Shown here in pieces: positions 8,468 through 34,220 of a stretch of DNA of 64,000 nucleotides. Position numbers and translations under genes: made by a program. This DNA is from Bdellovibrionales bacterium (GTDB taxonomy: Bacteria > Bdellovibrionota > Bdellovibrionia > Bdellovibrionales > Bdellovibrionaceae): the NCBI GenBank assembly GCA_005793345.1, contig SXSU01000092.1, positions 1-64,000 of the forward strand, in the 5' to 3' direction. Each line of letters starts with the position of its first letter. Position 1 is the first letter of the stretch. The notes under the pieces are model-generated. The model worked only from the letters and a program-made list of their open reading frames with translations. It was not told where the DNA came from and ran no database searches.

Positions 8468-8473
8468 GTTGTT

Positions 8474-8645
8474 GTCTCAAGGGGCAAAGGCTACTGAGAA
8501 ATAAACCCTACAAGTAAAAGTACGGGGGCTGTCCCTGACAATGGTGTGCAAGCTCAACTCTGTATTGAGAAGCCTAAAGTTGTTATCATGGCCACCCACC
8601 TTAACAAACCTGGGTTTATATGTCAGAGCTGCTCCTTGGGATTTT
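8474..8645 (+). ncRNA. ssrS: 6S RNA (RNA polymerase regulator)
   Basis: The segment begins 7 bases after a good -10 box. Its ends pair: TCTCAAGGGGCA at 8475-8486 with TGCTCCTTGGGA at 8630-8641, allowing G-U pairs. The 3' half contains the conserved GAGAAGCCTAAAGTTGT run (compare GAGAAGCCTTAAAACTG in E. coli ssrS), followed by CCACCTTAACAAACCTGGGTT, the counterpart of the E. coli CACCTTGAACCAAGGGTT stem-loop. A run of nine T follows the closing stem. The length of about 170 nt fits the family. 6S RNA mimics an open promoter and sequesters the housekeeping RNA polymerase in stationary phase. Confidence 0.85.
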
Positions 8646-8731
8646 TTTTTACTTTCTTATAAAAGAAATTTTTTGATTAAAAAAATTCACATAAAAATTC
8701 TAATATTAAAAATAAAAAATCAGAATCAGAA

Positions 8732-24559: not shown

Positions 24560-26359
24560 TTAAAAAATTGGATCACCTGTAATATCGTCAATTCCATCTT
24601 GATTTTCATCAACTACTCCTGGAGGTAAAATAATTGGAGTACCTGTTGGAGTAGGAGTTGGGGTGGGTGCAATTGTTTCAACTGGAATTGGGTTAACTGT
24701 AGGAGTTGGAGTTGGAGTTGGAGTAGGTACATTTGTTTCTACCGGAATTGGATTTACAGTAGGTGAAGGAGTTGGGGTTGGAGTAGGTACAATTGTCTCA
24801 ACCGGAGTAGGAATTACTGTAGGTGTAGGCTCAATTGTTTCAACCGGTGTTGGGTTAATAGTAGGGATAGGGGTTGGGGTAGGAGTAGGAGATGCTGTAG
24901 CTACTGGCGAGTTCTCACAGTAAGAAATTTTAATTTCAGAACCAGCAGATCCTAAATCACCTATTAAAAGTACATTTTCGTCCTCTATTATTGCTTCAAC
25001 TGATTTGCTATCAATATCAACTTTTAATGAGTCAGGATTTAAATTCTGAGTATGCTCCAGTTCGATTCTATCGAAAAGTTGTAGTCTTTGAGAAGTTAAG
25101 TTACCTATACTTTTCAAACCTTCAAGGTAAGAAGAATTGGCTAAATCTATCGCATTGCCTTTGTTAAGATTAATTAAATCAAGATAACCATGTCCAACTT
25201 CATTTTCACCATCTTTATTTAAAGTTAAATTATCAGTATAAATTATTCCACTAATTAAAAGAGGTCTATCCTTCATATGGCTTACTAGTTTAGAATAAAC
25301 AGATTCAGGGGTGATGCCTTTACAGTCTCTTTTAAAAGCACTTTCCTCTAGTTTATCTGGATCGCGAACAGGAACTAAATCCTTAGGGTAGTTAAAGCAA
25401 ATATCGTTTTCATCTGCGATAAACAAAATAGCCAGCGCAGCATCTTCTCTTAACATCCCATGAGCTTGAATTGAATTTAGTTTTCCATTATCTAAACTTC
25501 TATTTAGTGAGTATAAACCCTCTTCACCTCCATCAGAAAAATAATCTCCTTGCATATGGGTAAGACTTTTTACCAATGAATTACTAATTTCTAATTGAGT
25601 TAACACAGTAGATTTTAGAACAATAGGTTCGTTTTTATATTTCCAAAGAGCGCCAGAATGACTTCCGCGACTACCGTGTGCAGGTAAAATACCAATTTGA
25701 TAATCGATTCCATTTGGTAACTGATTTATAAAAGCTCCAATTTCAGTTGCGATTTTTTCTCTTTCTTTATTTAGAGAGCCTGATGTGTCAGAAATAATTA
25801 ATACATCTAATTTATTTACTTTTTCAGCTAAAGGTTGATGTGCAATTTGAATATAACACATTGGAGAAGCTGATGGCGGGATTTCTTTTATACAATTTTC
25901 AGATAGTTTATGATGATGTTTACCTTTTCTTTTTTTATTTTTATTATGGTCGTCTTTGTCATGTTTATCTTCTTTATCAGAATCTAAGTTTTTTGTGACA
26001 CTCCCATGATTTGAATCATGATGTTCACCTTCATCGTTATCCTCTTTATCATCCTTCTTCTCATCATTTTTAACTACTTCATTAGAATCGTGATCATTAT
26101 GATCCCCATTTCCAACTTGTGAGTCATGATTATCATTATCATGATCATCATTTTTATTTTCAGATTCGTCTTGTTCGTCCTCATCATCTTCTTTTACTAA
26201 ACAAGTTTCTTCTTCACTTTCAGACGAAAATGATTGCTCATTAGTATTATTGTGATTTTGGGTTTGCGTTGAACTACTAGAATTATCTTGGCTAAGGCAC
26301 CCAGTTAAGGTTGTTAAGAATGCCGATATTATCAGGCTAAGCATTAACTGTTTGTTCAT
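24560..26359 (-). CDS. von Willebrand factor A domain lipoprotein with acidic/His-rich region
   Basis: Lipoprotein of about 599 residues; the lipobox LTGC follows the signal MNKQLMLSLIISAFLTT. AAGGAG directly precedes this ATG, which is preferred to the upstream GTG at 26410. Domains in order: Ser/Asn linker, then about 100 residues very rich in Asp, Glu, His and Lys (likely cation-binding). The vWA domain has an intact MIDAS start DTSGS (VLIISDTSGSLNKE). Then comes a Thr-Pro repeat region (VETIVPTPTPTP units) and a final DENQDGIDD calcium-binding-like motif. A surface-exposed adhesion or sensor role is plausible. Confidence 0.82.
   Translation of the reverse strand: MNKQLMLSLIISAFLTTLTGCLSQDNSSSSTQTQNHNNTNEQSFSSESEEETCLVKEDDEDEQDESENKNDDHDNDNHDSQVGNGDHNDHDSNEVVKNDEKKDDKEDNDEGEHHDSNHGSVTKNLDSDKEDKHDKDDHNKNKKRKGKHHHKLSENCIKEIPPSASPMCYIQIAHQPLAEKVNKLDVLIISDTSGSLNKEREKIATEIGAFINQLPNGIDYQIGILPAHGSRGSHSGALWKYKNEPIVLKSTVLTQLEISNSLVKSLTHMQGDYFSDGGEEGLYSLNRSLDNGKLNSIQAHGMLREDAALAILFIADENDICFNYPKDLVPVRDPDKLEESAFKRDCKGITPESVYSKLVSHMKDRPLLISGIIYTDNLTLNKDGENEVGHGYLDLINLNKGNAIDLANSSYLEGLKSIGNLTSQRLQLFDRIELEHTQNLNPDSLKVDIDSKSVEAIIEDENVLLIGDLGSAGSEIKISYCENSPVATASPTPTPTPIPTINPTPVETIEPTPTVIPTPVETIVPTPTPTPSPTVNPIPVETNVPTPTPTPTPTVNPIPVETIAPTPTPTPTGTPIILPPGVVDENQDGIDDITGDPIF
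24650..24890. repeat. Minisatellite encoding Thr-Pro repeats
   Basis: Tandem units of about 57-60 bases (ACTGTAGGAGTTGG-type cores joined by ATTGTTTCAACCGG-type spacers) occur about four times. They encode the VETxxPTPTPTPTPxxNP units of the lipoprotein stalk. The units are imperfect. Such arrays can change copy number by slippage and alter stalk length. Confidence 0.75.
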
Positions 26360-26431
26360 AGTAACTCCTTTATATAACATTTCCCTGTTATTTGGTTTCC
26401 ACTTACGCACAGCTTTATGAGGTTAGTTTAT

Positions 26432-26447: not shown

Positions 26448-26888
26448 GGTCTAGTGTCCTTCTAAAATTAAGACAGCATTTTAGTAATAAATTTCATCGT
26501 GGATTTCAAAATATTGGCGAACTAATTTACAACCTCAGAAATAAAATTAAGATATAAAATTTTATGAAAAACTTTTAATCATTTTTTATTAAACTAATTT
26601 TAAGTGACTCATATTTAGAATTGAATTTAAGTTTTTTTAAATTCTCCAAAAACAACATCCGTTTTGCCTCATTTTTAACGGAATGCAATTTTCTGATAAA
26701 TTGTATTATAAGTATCATAAATTAGGGATATTGCACGATCATTAACCGAAAGGTAATTCTGATTCTCAATAAATTTAAAGTCATAAACGACATTAAATTT
26801 TAAATCAAAAACTTCTTTGCAACAATAAATGGCATTCATTTTTTTAAAAATTTAAATAGATTAGCTGAATCATTGACTAAATCTAAAA
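26448..26888. other. Gene-free AT-rich stretch
   Basis: These 441 bases between the vWA gene and the MITE-like element hold no convincing gene. A small TCCGTT/AACGGA inverted repeat is near 26670. Short open frames here run into the element but carry no recognisable motif. Confidence 0.35.
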
Positions 26889-27220
26889 GTGACCTCGCTG
26901 GCTTCCTTGAAACGAATTCATCCCACAGAAGCTCGCTCTCAATCATTGGTCGAGTTAGAAAATTAATTGTTTATGTATTTTCGTTTCAAAACAAAAAACG
27001 TCCAGCCAACTACGATCTTATCGAATACGTTCCGCTAAAAAAGATCTAACAATTTTTTAAAAATATTCAAAATTAACAAAATTATTTTTAAAATTTTATA
27101 AAGTTCTTTCCAATTATGACGATATATACACTGGTTGGGTGTATATATGTTAATTTTAATCATAATGACCTCCTTTTTAGTTTGTGGGAGGTCATTTCTT
27201 TTATAAGCCAACGAGGTCAC
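26889..27220. mobile_element. MITE-like element, copy 1 (332 bp)
   Basis: The ends form 16-bp terminal inverted repeats, GTGACCTCGCTGGCTT (26889-26904) and AAGCCAACGAGGTCAC (27205-27220), with one mismatch. Imperfect 9-bp direct repeats flank it (AATCTAAAA and AATCTATTA), consistent with target duplication. About 170 bases from the left end recur inverted at 32850-33021. Two further strong hairpins lie inside (27122-27148 and 27164-27196). No transposase is encoded, so movement would need one supplied elsewhere. Confidence 0.75.
27164..27196 (-). promoter_or_regulatory. Hairpin covering a Shine-Dalgarno sequence inside the element
   Basis: AATGACCTCC and GGAGGTCATT (10-bp arms, 13-base loop) pair on either strand. 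On the minus strand the AGGAGGTC half directly precedes an ATG at 27161-27163, so the ribosome site of a short frame (42 codons) would be hidden. Such hairpins protect some insertion-sequence genes from read-through translation. Confidence 0.45.
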
Positions 27221-27543
27221 AATCTATTATTGCAAACCAAAGTCTTTTGTTAAATTCAATTTGCTTTAATCTATAATTATAAAACCGGATATATAATCCA
27301 TTTTTCGAACTTTATTTTTTGCAACACCAATTTTTTCTAGTCATTTTTTTATTATGAAAAAACAAATATGCCATCATTTTAGGTTGTGAAAAATTCATAG
27401 GAGTTATTTCTAAATTTAAAAAGGCAAAAACATACAAATATTCATTAGAGAAAGTTCAAATTCCAAACCAAAAACAACATTTGTCTTAATAAAAAACAAT
27501 AATTCCAATTTTCTTTTTTGCCAAAATGCATTAGAAGATTTGT
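27221..27543. other. Gene-free stretch upstream of trmO
   Basis: This is a very AT-rich 323-base region. A 43-codon open stretch near 27360-27490 has no start signal and no recognisable motif. No clear ribosome binding site precedes trmO. Confidence 0.3.
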
Positions 27544-28248
27544 ATGGATTTAAACTTAAAAAAAATTGCTACTATTGATTCATGTTATCGAGATCGTTTT
27601 GCAGTGCCACGACAATCATTACTTGTCTCAAAAGCAGAATCTATAATTGTTTTTGAAAATTGGATTCAACCTGAATTGGCACTTCAAGGTTTAAGTGAAT
27701 TTAGTCATATTTGGGTGATATTTGGATTTCATTTGAATAAGGAAGGTCGTTATCATGCTAAAGTTCATCCTCCACGATTAAATGGAGAAACGATGGGTGC
27801 ATTAGCAACTCGCAGTCCTCATCGGCCAAATCCTATTGGATTATCTTTAGTTCAAATTTCAAAAGTTAATACTAATAATTTAGAAATTTTGGGGGGAGAT
27901 TTTGCAAATGGTACTCCTGTCTATGATATTAAGCCATATCTTCCCGAAACAGAATCGCAGCCGTTTGCCAATGGGGGATGGTTAAAAAAAGCCCAAAACA
28001 ATTTATTAGAGATTGAATTCGAGAACCAAACTGTAGAGTCAATATTAGAGGATTGGGCTAAACAAATTAATAAACCATTTCTAAAGGATATAATTATACA
28101 AACTTTAGAAAGAGATCCTCGGCCCTTAGTTTATAAAAAAATAGATGGTAATTATAAAGACAAACATGCATTTCGTTTATTTAATGGGGATATTCACTTT
28201 TATATACAAGGTAACAAGGTTGTGATTTTTCAAATTTTAATCAGCTAG
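27544..28248 (+). CDS. trmO: tRNA (N6-threonylcarbamoyladenosine37-N6)-methyltransferase TrmO
   Basis: TsaA/YaeB-family enzyme that methylates t6A37 of tRNA-Thr using S-adenosylmethionine. Recognised by LSEFSHIWVIFGFH, the HPPRLNGETMGALATRSPHRPNPIGLS block (residues about 75-105) and the GTPVYDIKPYLPETE motif. The C-terminal part (about 90 residues) is also typical. Length 234 residues is normal. It is a single gene, convergent with 28308-28634. Confidence 0.92.
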   Translation: MDLNLKKIATIDSCYRDRFAVPRQSLLVSKAESIIVFENWIQPELALQGLSEFSHIWVIFGFHLNKEGRYHAKVHPPRLNGETMGALATRSPHRPNPIGLSLVQISKVNTNNLEILGGDFANGTPVYDIKPYLPETESQPFANGGWLKKAQNNLLEIEFENQTVESILEDWAKQINKPFLKDIIIQTLERDPRPLVYKKIDGNYKDKHAFRLFNGDIHFYIQGNKVVIFQILIS

Positions 28249-28253
28249 AATTA

Positions 28254-28282
28254 TACTCTAATTATCATCCGTAATCAGAGTA
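28254..28282. terminator. Terminator-like hairpin
   Basis: An 11-bp stem with one mismatch (TACTCTAATTA at 28254-28264, TAATCAGAGTA at 28272-28282) and a 7-base loop lies just after the trmO stop codon and before the convergent gene end. A T-rich stretch appears only about 25 bases further on. Confidence 0.45.
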
Positions 28283-28307
28283 ATACTTAATTGGGTATTT
28301 GGTGGAT

Positions 28308-28634
28308 TTATTTTTTTGCTTTTTGCGTTTGTTTGACGTGTTTATCGTCCTTTTCTTTCACTAATTTTGAATTAGATTGTTGAGGAACAGGGGCTGAGGT
28401 GGCTAAAGCAATTTTTGCATCCTTAGTATCTTTGGATTTTTTCAACTTTCGTTCATTCACGATACGATCTAAGATTTCGAAAGCTTCTTTTTGAAGATCG
28501 TTTTCATAAATGAATCTATAAAAACCTTCAATCTCTGGACTTTGGCGAAATTTTTTAACAGACGTTGGAATACTTTCAGATTGAATAAAATCGATTGAGC
28601 TACCATCTTTTGAAAGTTTAACTTTGTCTGCCAT
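28308..28634 (-). CDS. Small hypothetical protein
   Basis: This cytoplasmic protein has 108 residues from the ATG at 28634, which has AAAGGAG at ideal spacing; an upstream ATG at 28694 lacks such a site. It has a charged middle (FRQSPEIEGFYRFIYENDLQKEAFEILDRIV) that looks like a small helical domain, and a Lys/Ala/Gln-rich basic tail typical of nucleic-acid-binding or disordered regions. No family was recognised. It is divergent from folD with 105 bases between start codons. Confidence 0.65.
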   Translation of the reverse strand: MADKVKLSKDGSSIDFIQSESIPTSVKKFRQSPEIEGFYRFIYENDLQKEAFEILDRIVNERKLKKSKDTKDAKIALATSAPVPQQSNSKLVKEKDDKHVKQTQKAKK

Positions 28635-28739
28635 TAAATCTCCTTTAAGTGCGTCTGAATAATTATTGCAACATTTAGATATTTGTAACATCATCCCCTT
28701 TTAAAATCAACTTAGCAACTTGAAAAAATGGAGGATATA

Positions 28740-29618
28740 ATGCTTGTTTTAGATGGAAAAATAGTTTCACAACTTCTTAAAACAGAAATATCTCAAAAGG
28801 TGACAGAGTTTAAGGCAAAATATCATAGAACTCCAGGGCTCGGTGTAATCATAGTTGGAAATAATCCTGCAAGCCATGTTTATGTTCGAAATAAAGAAAT
28901 AGCTTGTAAAAATGTTGGAATGAATTCTATAAAATGGGATTTTCCCGAAGATATCTCTGAAGATGATTTAGTTAAACAAATTAAAAAAATGAATGAATTA
29001 AAAGATGTTGATGCCTTTTTAGTTCAAATGCCGCTCCCTCAACATATTAATACAGATAAAATTTTAGATGCCATTGATCCGTTAAAAGATGCTGATGGAT
29101 TACATCCATATAATTTAGGTATGTTATGGGTTAATCGCCAAATAGTTGCTCCGTGTACTCCTTGGGGAGTTATACGAATTTTAAAACATTATGAAATCTC
29201 AATTGCAGGAAAGAATTGTGTAGTTGTGGGCAGAAGTCAAATAGTAGGTAAGCCAATGGCTCATTTACTAACCCAAGCAGATGGAACAGTTACAATTGTT
29301 CATAGTCGAACTAAAAATATTTCAGATTTTACTCGTCAAGCGGATATTGTAGTCGTTGCTGCTGGTAAAAAGCATTTGATGGGTAAAAATGATTTTAAAG
29401 TAGGCTCTGTGATTATAGATGTGGGTATTCATGGGTCAGGCTTGTCATCTTCAGATCAAAGAGAAAAAAGTAAAATAAGTGGAGATGTTAGATTTGATGA
29501 ATTGCAAGGATGGGTTTCGGCTGCAACCCCAGTCCCTGGTGGTGTTGGACCTATGACAATAGCTTGCCTGCTAGAGAACACGTTAAAATTAGCCGAAAAT
29601 AGAATGAAAATTTGCTAA
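28740..29618 (+). CDS. folD: Methylenetetrahydrofolate dehydrogenase/cyclohydrolase FolD
   Basis: Bifunctional one-carbon enzyme converting 5,10-methylene-THF to 10-formyl-THF with NADP. Signatures: YVRNKEIACKNVGM with the catalytic lysine, VQMPLPQHI, the D-A-D-G-L-H-P motif in PLKDADGLHPYN, the Rossmann CVVVGRSQIVGKPMAHLL and the C-terminal PVPGGVGPMTIACLLENT. The ATG at 28740 with GGAGG upstream is preferred to the ATG at 28728. It ends 3 bases before the stop of the convergent transporter gene. Confidence 0.96.
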   Translation: MLVLDGKIVSQLLKTEISQKVTEFKAKYHRTPGLGVIIVGNNPASHVYVRNKEIACKNVGMNSIKWDFPEDISEDDLVKQIKKMNELKDVDAFLVQMPLPQHINTDKILDAIDPLKDADGLHPYNLGMLWVNRQIVAPCTPWGVIRILKHYEISIAGKNCVVVGRSQIVGKPMAHLLTQADGTVTIVHSRTKNISDFTRQADIVVVAAGKKHLMGKNDFKVGSVIIDVGIHGSGLSSSDQREKSKISGDVRFDELQGWVSAATPVPGGVGPMTIACLLENTLKLAENRMKIC

Positions 29619-29621
29619 TTT

Positions 29622-30998
29622 TTAAATAGATTTTCCAATTATTTTTTCTAAAGGTTTTTTGGCAATGAAAAATAGTGTACCATTTGCAATACCAAAAGCT
29701 GCAAGCATTAAAAAGAAGTTTTCAGGACTCATTTTGCTATAATAAATTCCAAGATACCCAGCTAAGTTATTTCCAAAAAAGCTTGATAAAAACCAAGCCC
29801 CCATCATCATTGATAATATTGGAGCAGGTGCAACTTTTGTTACTAATGAGAGTCCAATCGGCGATAGATAAAGTTCACCAAGAGTAAAAATAAAAACAGT
29901 ACCGACTAACCACATAATATTGCCTTTGTCTGCTTCTGGATTAAATCGAGCGGCTAAAATCATTACTAAATAGGCAAGCCCACAATATATGGAACCAATT
30001 CCCATCTTTGTAACAGATGAAGACTCCTTACCAACCTTAGCTCTTTTATTCCAAAAGGAAGAAAGGAGAGGGGCAAATAATATAATCATAAGAGGATTGA
30101 AGGATTGAAACCAAGTTGATGGAATTGTAAATCCTAATAAGTTCCAATTCGTTTTTTCATCGGCCCATAATTGCAAGGTATTGCCTTGTTGTTCGTAAAT
30201 AGCCCAAAAAGTGATATTTAAAAAACATAAAAATAAAAGTGCAAAAACAGAAAAGTATTCTTCTTTTGATAGTTTTGTTTTTGTAGTGGATTCTAAATTT
30301 AATTGTAACTTATGATCGTCTCTTGGAACTAAGTTTTCACCTAACCAATAAAATATCAAACCAATTAGCATTCCCACCCCTGCTGCGCCGAATCCCCAAT
30401 GCCATCCAACTAATTGTCCCAAGGTGCCACAAATCAAAGGCGAAAACATTGCTCCTAAATTAATTCCCATATAAAAAATTGTAAAAGCAGAATCTCTTCG
30501 ACTATCACCTTCTTTATATAAATTACCAACTTGAGTTGAAATATTTGGTTTAAATGCTCCATTACCTAAGATTAAAAACAAAATGGCAATAAGGAACATA
30601 TTTTCATAGGCCATTAAAAAATGACCAATGGCCATAAGTAAACCGCCTAGATATACTGATTTTCTTTGTCCCAAGTATTTATCTGCAAGGATGCCACCAA
30701 AAAAAGGCGTAAAATAAACAAAGCCTGTATACCATCCATATATTATTGAGCTTGTCTGTTGAACATTCATTTCGCCATACATTGAATTTAAAAAATTTTG
30801 TAACCATTGAAACCCAATGACTTGATCGGCACGGACAGGATCAATAATTAAGTATTTTGTCATATAAAGCATGAGTAATGCTTTCATTCCATAAAAAGAA
30901 AAACGTTCCCACATTTCAGTAAAGAATAATACGTAGAGACCAGCTGGGTGACCCCAAATTTCTTTGGATTTCAATTTTGTGGTTAGCATTTCTTTCAT
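29622..30998 (-). CDS. Proton-dependent oligopeptide transporter (POT/PTR2 family)
   Basis: Major-facilitator peptide/H+ symporter of 458 residues. The POT signature ExxERFxYY appears as FTEMWERFSFYGMKALL at the start, followed by GGILADKYLGQRKSV and the FxIFYMGINLGAMFSP motif (PTR2 signature 2). About 12-14 hydrophobic helices are visible along the chain. It imports di- and tripeptides, a sensible partner to the exported aminopeptidase and other degradative enzymes of this genome. A dispersed repeat lies just upstream of its start. Confidence 0.93.
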   Translation of the reverse strand: MKEMLTTKLKSKEIWGHPAGLYVLFFTEMWERFSFYGMKALLMLYMTKYLIIDPVRADQVIGFQWLQNFLNSMYGEMNVQQTSSIIYGWYTGFVYFTPFFGGILADKYLGQRKSVYLGGLLMAIGHFLMAYENMFLIAILFLILGNGAFKPNISTQVGNLYKEGDSRRDSAFTIFYMGINLGAMFSPLICGTLGQLVGWHWGFGAAGVGMLIGLIFYWLGENLVPRDDHKLQLNLESTTKTKLSKEEYFSVFALLFLCFLNITFWAIYEQQGNTLQLWADEKTNWNLLGFTIPSTWFQSFNPLMIILFAPLLSSFWNKRAKVGKESSSVTKMGIGSIYCGLAYLVMILAARFNPEADKGNIMWLVGTVFIFTLGELYLSPIGLSLVTKVAPAPILSMMMGAWFLSSFFGNNLAGYLGIYYSKMSPENFFLMLAAFGIANGTLFFIAKKPLEKIIGKSI

Positions 30999-31021
30999 TA
31001 CGAATCCTCACTATATCAAAA

Positions 31022-31073
31022 GCAATTATTCTCTTGTTTGTTTGGGGCGATTTTCAATCGCCCTTTATTATGA
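31022..31073 (-). repeat. Dispersed hairpin repeat, copy C (partial)
   Basis: About 52 bases match the middle of the repeat at 55874-56025 in reverse orientation, including TTGTTTGTTTGGGGCGATTT. The GGGCGATT/AATCGCCC hairpin is perfect here (8-bp stem, 3-base loop, 31046-31064). It lies in the gap between two minus-strand genes. Confidence 0.75.
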
Positions 31074-31155
31074 CGACATGCCAACATTACTCATTGTCAA
31101 AAGAGATGCAACATTTTTTAAAATGTACATTTTTATACAGAAATATTTAAATATC

Positions 31156-31806
31156 CTACTTGTTTAATTTTGATTTTTTAAATTTTAAAACTTGAGAAGC
31201 CAATGGGCCAGAGATTGTCAATGAAGACTCGTGAAATTCAATTTCACTAATGGGTACATTAAATGTAATTATATAGGCATTATTCCAATGAGTATGAAAG
31301 GGAAAAATATTTTGAATTTCTGAAACAAGAAAACTATATTTAGAAACCTTCCCTTCGTAGCGATTGCCGCCAGCAGTTAATATGACCTTCCAAAGTGTTT
31401 CTGATCTTGTGAGATCATTGTTTTTTCTTTCAGGTGTATAGAATGATACAAAAAACTCTGAATTCTTTGAATTTATTAAAAAACGGTCCGTGTAATCCTT
31501 ATCAAATTGTTCTTTATTCCAATTTAAAGTTGTGGCTTTTCTTTTTGAAATAGCCTGGGAAACTTCTGTATTAAGAATAGTAGCATTTACCTCCAGAGTA
31601 TTATGAAGCCCATCATATTCAGTGGCCTTGTCCGTGAATTTTTCTATAATGTTTTCGTAATCAGAATCATCAATTGTGATATTGGTGTTTTGTGGAACTT
31701 GAGTTTCATTGAACTCTTTATTTTGTTGAGTGCTGCACCCAAGTGCAAAAATAAGTGTTGCAGAAATAAATATCTTAAAAGTAAAAAAAATTGCATTTAA
31801 TTTCAT
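31156..31806 (-). CDS. Putative lipoprotein
   Basis: The protein has 216 residues from the ATG at 31806, which is preceded by TTGGAGA. The signal peptide ends in the lipobox ALGC (IFISATLIFALGCSTQQ). The mature part has beta-strand segments (FFVSFYTPERKN, AYIITFNVPISEIEF, SLTISGPLASQVL) and a single lipid-attachment cysteine. No family was recognised. It is followed by a repeat and then the transporter gene on the same strand. Confidence 0.72.
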   Translation of the reverse strand: MKLNAIFFTFKIFISATLIFALGCSTQQNKEFNETQVPQNTNITIDDSDYENIIEKFTDKATEYDGLHNTLEVNATILNTEVSQAISKRKATTLNWNKEQFDKDYTDRFLINSKNSEFFVSFYTPERKNNDLTRSETLWKVILTAGGNRYEGKVSKYSFLVSEIQNIFPFHTHWNNAYIITFNVPISEIEFHESSLTISGPLASQVLKFKKSKLNK

Positions 31807-31897
31807 ATTGATTCTCCAACTCACAAATTTTCAAGATTTGAAGTTCTAAATATAGCGTCAATTTTAATTATTTAATCAGATCCTTGTGAGGTCAAAC

Positions 31898-32656
31898 TTA
31901 AAACACTATATTAAAATCTAAAATCCTATCTAATTTTATTCCATTTGCAGAAATTTTAACTACCAATGGAGTAATTTTTAGACCTTCGTCATGAGCTTGT
32001 TTTAAAAGCTGTGCATATTCGGGATCAATATGAGTAGCTGGTTTAAAAATTTCACAATCATCTCTTTGGATGATATATAACATTTCAGCGGTGAATCCTT
32101 TTTTCATAAGATTCATTAATTCGTGCAAATGCTTTTGACCTCGCTCAGTTATAGCGTCTGGAAAATAAACCACTCCATTTTCACTTAAGGTCACATTTTT
32201 AACTTCAACCAAATGAAAGGGTAAATTTGTTTTTTCAAAAAAAGAAGGGGTTATTTTACCGTCATAAATTGTTTGATTCCAAATTACAAGATCGATACGG
32301 CTTTCTTTACTAATTTTAACTTCTGTTTGCACTCGATCAAATTTATTCCAGTGTGGAATATGTTTTTCGTTAAATGCCTCAACGGCTAACTTATTTGGCC
32401 AAGAGGTATTTACTCCGACCCAGGTGTTATTCGTTTTAATTGCTTCAAGGGTATAAGGAAGTTTTCTATCAAGAGAGTCACTTTTTGAAATAAGACATGG
32501 GCTATTAGGTGTATTACAACTTTTCATGCTACCAGTATTTGGAACGTGAACTGTAATGATCTCGTTATTTAATTTTATATCAGCTAAAAATCGATTATAG
32601 CGTTTTAAAAAAATACCCTCAAAACATTGATTTTTAAAGTTCATAATTTTATCCAT
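31898..32656 (-). CDS. sfsA: Sugar fermentation stimulation protein A homologue
   Basis: Family of predicted nucleic-acid-binding/nuclease-like proteins whose true activity is unsettled. Matches to E. coli SfsA include LKRYNRFLADI, VHVPNTGSMKSC, the V-x-VNT-W motif (WVGVNTSWPNKLAVEAF), SRIDLVI, HLVEVKNVTLSENGV, YFPDAITERGQKHL and HIDPEYAQLL. The EVK and D residues form a PD-(D/E)xK-like core. Start 32656 is kept; an internal ATG at 32644 is possible and neither has a good ribosome site. Confidence 0.93.
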   Translation of the reverse strand: MDKIMNFKNQCFEGIFLKRYNRFLADIKLNNEIITVHVPNTGSMKSCNTPNSPCLISKSDSLDRKLPYTLEAIKTNNTWVGVNTSWPNKLAVEAFNEKHIPHWNKFDRVQTEVKISKESRIDLVIWNQTIYDGKITPSFFEKTNLPFHLVEVKNVTLSENGVVYFPDAITERGQKHLHELMNLMKKGFTAEMLYIIQRDDCEIFKPATHIDPEYAQLLKQAHDEGLKITPLVVKISANGIKLDRILDFNIVF

Positions 32657-32833
32657 TCATATTTTTTTATGAAACTATCTTTAAAATTATAAAGTTCAAG
32701 AAAATATTTAATATTTTTAAATTTTTTAATTCACTAAACTATGGATCCGATTTCTGAATAATTTTATGGTTCATTGATTTCAAATCGCTTTAAACAAGAG
32801 CTTGATGTGGAAAATGAATTGTAGATCTTGGAT

Positions 32834-33021
32834 TCGACCTCGTTTGCTTTTAAAAAATTGTTAGATCTTTTTTAGCGGAACGTATTCGATAAGATCGTAG
32901 TTGGCTGGACGTTTTTTGTTTTGAAACAATGAAACATAAACAATTAATTTTCTAACTCGACCAATGATTGAGAGCGAGCTTCTGTGGGATGGATTCGTTT
33001 CAAGGAAGCCAGCGAGGTCAC
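32834..33021. mobile_element. MITE-like element, copy 2 (188 bp, internally deleted)
   Basis: This is the inverted copy of the element at 26889-27220. The right end AAGCCAGCGAGGTCAC (33006-33021) is identical to the complement of copy 1's left end, and the other end (TCGACCTCGTTTGCTT, 32834-32849) is a decayed terminal repeat. About 170 bases are nearly identical to copy 1, and the part holding the two hairpins is missing. TCTTG-containing 8-9-bp flanks (32826 and 33022) suggest a target duplication. Confidence 0.72.
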
Positions 33022-34220
33022 TCTTGTAATTTTAAAAATCGTTTATGCAATTTTTGAAACCAGTGGGGAGCTTGTTTGGTCATAACAAGATCTAACATAT
33101 ATTTTCCTGGTAAGTTATAAAAATAATTACCCCAAAATCGAGAATTTAAACTACAGGTATCATTTATTTCATTCAAGTTATTTTCCTTAGCCTCAGTAAT
33201 TTCTGTAGAGTGATTTTTAATACAGTCTAATTTTACCACTTCATTGATTATGCGAAAGTGTTCATTCAGAGTTTGGTTTGGGAGGTAAATTAAATTCAAT
33301 ATATGACTTAAAATATTATCTGGAAACTTTTTATTCAAATCGGAATCAAGATCTCCGGTTGGTGCTATATTGGTTAACTCTAAAACATAAGGACTAAAGG
33401 GGTAAGATAAAAGGGCACTTGCTAAAATTACTTCGCCTTCAACTGCATTTTGAACTAATGTGTTGAAACTCAATTTTTGAATTAAAACTTTAATTTTTTC
33501 TAGAAGCTCAATCGATTTTTGATGTTTTGTTCTTGCAGCATCATGAATAAAATTTTTTGTTTTATTAAGTAGAACTTCGTAAATTAGTCCCTCTATTAGG
33601 CTAAATGAAGAATTATTTAACAATTGATAATTAAAATAATAGAAATGTTCTAATTCAAGAGCAATTCCATCTCGAATTTTAATGTTATTTAGATTTTCAT
33701 TCCATTTTAAATTTAAGAACATTAAATAATGTTTGGAGATATTGAAGTAGGCTAAAATTGGTTTTTTAAGGTGCAGATTTGTGCCTTTGCATCCAAAATT
33801 GTTGCCTTTTAATATTTCTAATAACCGATCAATATATATTTTCTCATTTGGCAATTGTGTTTTAAGTTCTGTAGTTTCATCATTTGTAAAATTACAAATA
33901 CCTTTGCAGGGGTCGACAAGTTTTAAGTTACTTTTAAAGTTTGGTATTTTTATATCATTTAAGTAATTATTTTCGATACTAGGTGTGGCTTTAAGTTGGT
34001 CTAGAAGTTTTCTGCCCTCAATATCAGAATCGATGTCAGCAGGTGATCCAATTGCTAATAATTTAGAGCATTTCAAGTTGTCTTCATCGCTCATTAAAGA
34101 ATTTTTTTTGAGAATTAACTCTACATTTGAATTTAAAGTTTCATCAAATTGATTAATTAAAAAGAATAATAAAAAAAAAGAAAAGATGGCGACGCTTAAA
34201 TATAAAATTATTTTTTTCAT
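33018..34220 (-). CDS. Exported protein of unknown function, 3' end altered by element insertion
   Basis: About 400 residues from the ATG at 34220 (GGAG upstream; an ATG at 34232 is less likely). A single N-terminal hydrophobic segment (KIILYLSVAIFSFFLLFFLI) is followed by a helical, cysteine-containing periplasmic domain (six or more Cys, for example DPCKGICNF). No family was recognised. Its TGA stop codon lies inside the terminal inverted repeat of the element at 32834-33021, so the original C-terminus was probably longer or different. Confidence 0.68.
   Translation of the reverse strand: MKKIILYLSVAIFSFFLLFFLINQFDETLNSNVELILKKNSLMSDEDNLKCSKLLAIGSPADIDSDIEGRKLLDQLKATPSIENNYLNDIKIPNFKSNLKLVDPCKGICNFTNDETTELKTQLPNEKIYIDRLLEILKGNNFGCKGTNLHLKKPILAYFNISKHYLMFLNLKWNENLNNIKIRDGIALELEHFYYFNYQLLNNSSFSLIEGLIYEVLLNKTKNFIHDAARTKHQKSIELLEKIKVLIQKLSFNTLVQNAVEGEVILASALLSYPFSPYVLELTNIAPTGDLDSDLNKKFPDNILSHILNLIYLPNQTLNEHFRIINEVVKLDCIKNHSTEITEAKENNLNEINDTCSLNSRFWGNYFYNLPGKYMLDLVMTKQAPHWFQKLHKRFLKLQE

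Follow-up and report, generated by a model that had tools for sequence, protein, structure and literature searches.

A multicopy repeat with pairing ends in Bdellovibrionales is a predicted type I toxin-antitoxin module

The stretch of DNA analysed here (the window, 64 kb) contains two copies of a short repeat, which a sequence-only reading had described as MITE-like. Analysis of copy 1 revealed 16-bp terminal inverted repeats with a single mismatch, as that reading had claimed, and, with up to 3 mismatches allowed, the window contained the 16-mer end three times, compared with 0.03 expected. The DNA mismatch of the copy 1 ends becomes a G-U pair as RNA, so that 16/16 positions pair. Copy 2 was confirmed to be inverted, with 178 nt in common with copy 1 at 97% identity (26885-27062 and 32848-33025), and to be an internal-deletion remnant: approximately 147 nt (27063-27209) are gone, and its far end retains only GACCTCGTT (32836-32844). 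A transposase ORF was absent from both copies, also as described. Read on the minus strand, copy 1 contains GGAGGTCATTATG and an ORF of 42 codons (27163-27035); this 42-aa ORF, its perfect Shine-Dalgarno (SD) sequence and the many copies in the genome had been overlooked. DNA comparison within the genome identified approximately 10 more copies or fragments with 68-97% identity, and the suggestion that the repeats form an undescribed family was borne out, their borders being discrete. The full genome copies possess the ORF and the SD at the equivalent place, with one exception that contains a premature stop (L005). The RNA of copy 1 folds with a predicted energy of -90.5 kcal/mol (z -6.84 compared with 100 shuffles) and is closed by its own two ends. 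The features of both copies are listed in Table 1. Elsewhere the window contains a 6S (SsrS) RNA (8470-8647, plus strand; Rfam, 69.1 bits) and a long ORF (24560-26410, minus strand) whose N-terminal part is rich in aspartate and histidine and whose C-terminal end has PTPTP-rich repeats; its product is likely a surface lipoprotein.

Table 1. Observed and predicted features of the two copies, with window coordinates
Feature	Coordinates	Strand	Basis
Complete unit of the predicted toxin mRNA (332 nt; direction 27220 to 26889)	26889..27220	-	Fold; further genome copies
5' arm of the pairing between the ends (right 'TIR'); transcription predicted to start at 27220	27205..27220	-	16-nt pairing with 26904-26889, including one G-U; own-versus-cross test
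3' arm of end-to-end pairing (left 'TIR')	26889..26904	-	Own-versus-cross test; sequence; fold
42-codon ORF MIKINIYTPNQCIYRHNWKELYKILKIILLILNIFKKLLDLF, including stop	27035..27163	-	Profile match, E 1.4e-21; conserved in about 100 loci; one predicted helix, residues 9-41
Shine-Dalgarno GGAGGT	27168..27173	-	Sequence; strong SD in 96/103 loci
Hairpin predicted to bury the SD; anti-SD arm TGACCTCCC at 27194-27186	27164..27196	-	Minimum free energy and centroid folds
Predicted hairpin within start of coding sequence	27112..27155	-	Predicted folds; own-versus-cross signal absent family-wide
Sigma-54-type -24/-12 site AAAAGACTTTGGTTTGCA; good -12 half (TTTGCA) and imperfect -24 half; +1 = 27220	27231..27248	-	Sequence; family-conserved motif
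Sigma-70-type match, 10/12, overlapping the sigma-54 site, same start	27253-27226	-	Sequence match
Candidate antisense (antitoxin) RNA terminator: hairpin -15.8 kcal/mol, then TTTCTTTT	27164..27202	+	Terminator here in 9/14 own-genome loci
Weak candidate antisense promoter TTCAAA-17-TAAAAT inside ORF	27066..27094	+	9/12; match count not above shuffles
Copy 2: remnant without 5'UTR hairpin, start codon and most of ORF	32836..33021	+	Sequence comparison with copy 1

The distribution of the peptide was examined using profiles. Within the same genome these identified 15 ORFs of the family, in addition to the remnant copy 2. The first profile was built from nine peptides and found relatives in the same family and order; an enlarged profile was then used, and matched in 35 of 66 genomes of the family. 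When applied to a 291-genome sample of the phylum, the enlarged profile matched 32 genomes, 31 of which belong to the same order, and no matches were obtained in ten genomes reached via FolD relatives. The cassette family is taxon-restricted: it occurs in Bdellovibrionaceae, the family to which this genome was assigned from named relatives of the neighbouring FolD, and in part of the remaining Bdellovibrionales. Altogether, the analysis covered 103 distinct loci. The peptides are 33-48 aa in length, basic (net positive charge) and leucine-rich, and have an N-terminus that varies and a leucine-rich core that is conserved (ILxLxLLxLxIxKxxxDLF). A search with five diverse members against Pfam and NCBIfam, including curated families such as hok, Ldr, Fst and Ibs, identified no family above cut-off, and PADLOC yielded no match for the peptide family.

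We also examined the pairing of the two ends across loci. For every locus we scored the best helix formed by its own 5' and 3' stretches, and compared this own pair with pairs from mismatched loci; these local pairing scores replaced duplex energies over the whole flanks, which were noisy (26/102 loci beat all backgrounds, 3.9 expected). The own 5'/3' pairing was in the top 5% of cross pairings at 78 of 101 loci, a test in which relatedness is only partly corrected (its binomial P value is not to be taken at face value) and in which the presence of similar loci in the background is conservative. When similar loci were removed, 39/53 loci were in the top 5% and 34/53 in the top 1%, while two control regions gave 6/53 and 1/53. 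The sequences of the arms differed strongly between loci (GTGACCTCGTTGGCTT, TGGACTTAAGCCAC, GCAGACTTCGCTCAGG), and their place relative to the ORF was nearly constant. The predicted mRNA begins and ends with the sequences that had been described as terminal inverted repeats, and these coevolve as an RNA pairing. The coding-sequence hairpin and the SD hairpin showed no own-versus-cross signal of their own across loci, and none of 95 loci gave a signal for an SD arm paired with the 3'UTR. Own pairing of the anti-SD arm with the 3'UTR exceeded cross pairing in 15/53 loci. In the 3'UTR of copy 1, an SD-like GTGGGA could pair with the anti-SD arm (27186-27194, minus strand), and this pairing would compete with burial of the SD.

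Analysis of the region upstream of the 5' arm revealed TTGGC..AAAATGCA at most loci. This form corresponds to the -24/-12 consensus of sigma-54 promoters. A strict GG-N10-GC was present within one 13-nt interval at 57/95 loci, compared with 2.4 ± 1.5 in shuffled sequences, and the best sigma-54-type site overall fell in the same interval at 77/95 loci. The predicted start, 12 nt on from the motif, falls on or close to the 5' arm's first base (27220 in the window copy), and the gene for sigma-54 (RpoN) was identified in 39 of 40 genomes tested. Strong sigma-70 -10 hexamers were not enriched upstream (24/95 loci compared with 31/95 in a control stretch), and it was this result that led the search to the sigma-54 motif. 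For the window copy itself, the predicted sigma-70 match fits as well as the sigma-54 site with its imperfect -24 half. Intrinsic terminators were enriched on the antisense strand, with one between -75 and -51 in 51/81 relatives and between -50 and -26, at the SD hairpin, in 9/14 loci of the own genome. The inverted repeat over the start in relatives can terminate sense transcription too, and may serve the upstream gene; because the same repeat can act in this direction, the antisense terminator is not proof of an antisense RNA. The ORF contains a weak candidate for an antisense promoter.

We consider it probable, from the arrangement of these elements, that copy 1 represents a chromosomal type I toxin-antitoxin module of a new family in Bdellovibrionales, in which both the toxicity and the antitoxin are predicted. 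Transcription from a sigma-54-type promoter would yield a toxin mRNA whose first base is also that of the right 'TIR', and the full-length mRNA would close by pairing of its 5' and 3' ends, a step that the coevolution of the arms supports. The closed mRNA together with the local hairpin over the SD would prevent translation. Loss of the 3' end would then open the RNA and lead to synthesis of the peptide, and this basic, leucine-rich, helical molecule of approximately 33-48 residues would act on the cell's own membrane. The putative antitoxin would be an antisense RNA that runs from inside the ORF toward the 5' end and stops at the terminator in the 5'UTR/promoter. Copy 2 and the other decayed copies would be units from which the toxin has been deleted.

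Two characterized systems were compared with this arrangement. The toxin mRNA of aapA/IsoA from Helicobacter and Campylobacter displays 5'-3' long-distance pairing and an anti-SD hairpin, and its antisense RNA originates from inside the ORF (PMC6733600). The Bdellovibrionales family has the same combination of several chromosomal copies, a short basic helical peptide, 5'-3' pairing that coevolution supports, and a predicted anti-SD hairpin and antisense RNA; it differs in the length of the peptide (33-48 aa compared with 30 aa) and in its sigma-54-type promoter. In aapA the long-distance pairing is reported to occlude the SD, whereas in the Bdellovibrionales cassette a predicted local hairpin contains the SD and pairing of the ends takes place outside it. 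The SD itself is not paired with the 3' end, so silencing by the closed form is less clear than in aapA. AapA1 (sequence from PMC10537873) scored 1.1 and -0.2 bits against two family profiles. Since AapA1 is not detectably similar, we do not class the family as a member of the aapA system, yet by analogy it would work like one. In hok/Sok, a stable full-length mRNA is closed by 5'-3' pairing and is activated by 3' trimming (PMC8309996). The predicted closure of the full-length mRNA resembles that in hok/Sok of plasmid R1 and E. coli, and activation of the Bdellovibrionales mRNA is proposed by analogy. In contrast to hok/Sok, no mok-like overlapping reading frame was identified, and the family is chromosomal, restricted to Bdellovibrionales and without a Pfam/NCBIfam match.

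The same elements could also belong to a sigma-54-controlled structured mRNA that lacks an antitoxin and encodes a small membrane peptide not toxic to its own cell, with a role in regulating a target, in stress or in predation. The conserved promoter motif and peptide would suit such a role, as would the weakness of the antisense promoter and the predictive basis of the toxicity. We nevertheless regard it as unlikely: type I toxin mRNAs characteristically have closed ends and a buried SD (PMC6733600), the antisense terminators lie over the 5' end, and the family is multicopy and patchily distributed, with repeated loss of the coding part. Internal deletions or stops that kill the toxin were found in copy 2, in L005 and in genome G033, where both ends are retained and the C-terminus of the toxin is lost, an internal loss like that of copy 2.

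Judged less probable again is the interpretation given in the sequence-only reading, namely a non-autonomous transposon (MITE) with terminal inverted repeats recognised by a transposase in trans. The cassette is like a MITE in its size, inverted ends, multiple copies and internally deleted copies. Between the -24 box and the 3' arm, dispersed copies in genome G021 shared approximately 95% identity, with unrelated flanks and sharp borders, as a transposon would produce; however, these borders are positioned at the promoter, approximately 25-30 nt outside the 5' arm, and not at the inverted repeat. Presence and absence at one site would also be expected of a mobile element. Bdellovibrio bacteriovorus Tiberius has approximately 354 nt containing the cassette where strain HD100 has approximately 29 nt, but no target duplication was found at this site. 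The two cultured strains differ there in the presence of the cassette (L048 and L242; Tiberius 3649112; HD100 3426203-3426233), next to a gene that, from reading its ORF, we take to encode a penicillin-binding-like protein. The 9-bp flanking repeat reported for copy 1 is present at 7/9 positions (AATCTAAAA and AATCTATTA). Seven other genome copies show no such repeat (no target-site duplication in 7/8 copies), and for this reason the repeat of copy 1 is probably due to chance. The search for an insertion sequence with the same ends gave 14 genome hits at 1 mismatch compared with 18 for a reversed control, in a draft that is 83% complete, and no transposase-bearing element with these ends stood out. 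The ends differ between loci yet are complementary at each. Unlike those of a MITE, they show the coevolution of an RNA stem; they also bracket a single promoter-ORF unit and match the position of the predicted transcription start. The cassette has its own promoter and coding capacity, with a conserved ORF and SD. Its discrete dispersal is real, and it is gained or lost as a unit, by a route that could be mobility of some kind, gene conversion, recombination or deletion.

A family of non-coding RNAs in which the ORF is accidental would account for a structure conserved more strongly than sequence and for codon choice biased beyond amino-acid need at several core columns (a bias that may reflect RNA pairing or an antisense promoter), but is very improbable given that the SD, start codon and hydrophobic pattern are retained in approximately 100 loci despite strong nucleotide divergence and that, per site, close pairs differ by more synonymous than replacement changes.

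A broader form of the toxin-antitoxin interpretation, which we put forward tentatively and at somewhat less than even chances, is that these are phylum-specific type I modules of predatory bacteria and their relatives, in which transcription of a self-acting membrane toxin would be gated through sigma-54 by enhancer-binding activators, and which would spread between loci as discrete promoter-to-terminator cassettes. According to a 2025 paper, type I systems had been recorded in Proteobacteria, Firmicutes and Tenericutes alone until the cyanobacterial case that it presents (PMC12390103). In the literature we found no type I system described in Bdellovibrio, nor this kind reported in the phylum. 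The approximately 100 divergent natural sequences with coevolving mRNA ends make the folding logic of toxin mRNAs testable across species, and Tiberius and HD100, with the cassette present and absent at the same locus, offer a direct comparison in culture. If the sigma-54 promoter is real, transcription of the toxin would depend on a specific activator; we know of no description of activator-dependent transcription of type I toxins. The locus also calls for caution with short repeats that have inverted ends, which may be transcripts rather than transposons. Grouped modules were observed both in the genome of the window, with four in tandem at L077 (G000:C129:130500-134500), spaced by approximately 455-500 nt and with their own pairing ends TGACTGAGTCATTTG, and in one other genome, with clusters of several similar modules at L176 and L177 (G077 contigs C33 and C24) at distances ranging from a few hundred up to a few thousand bases.
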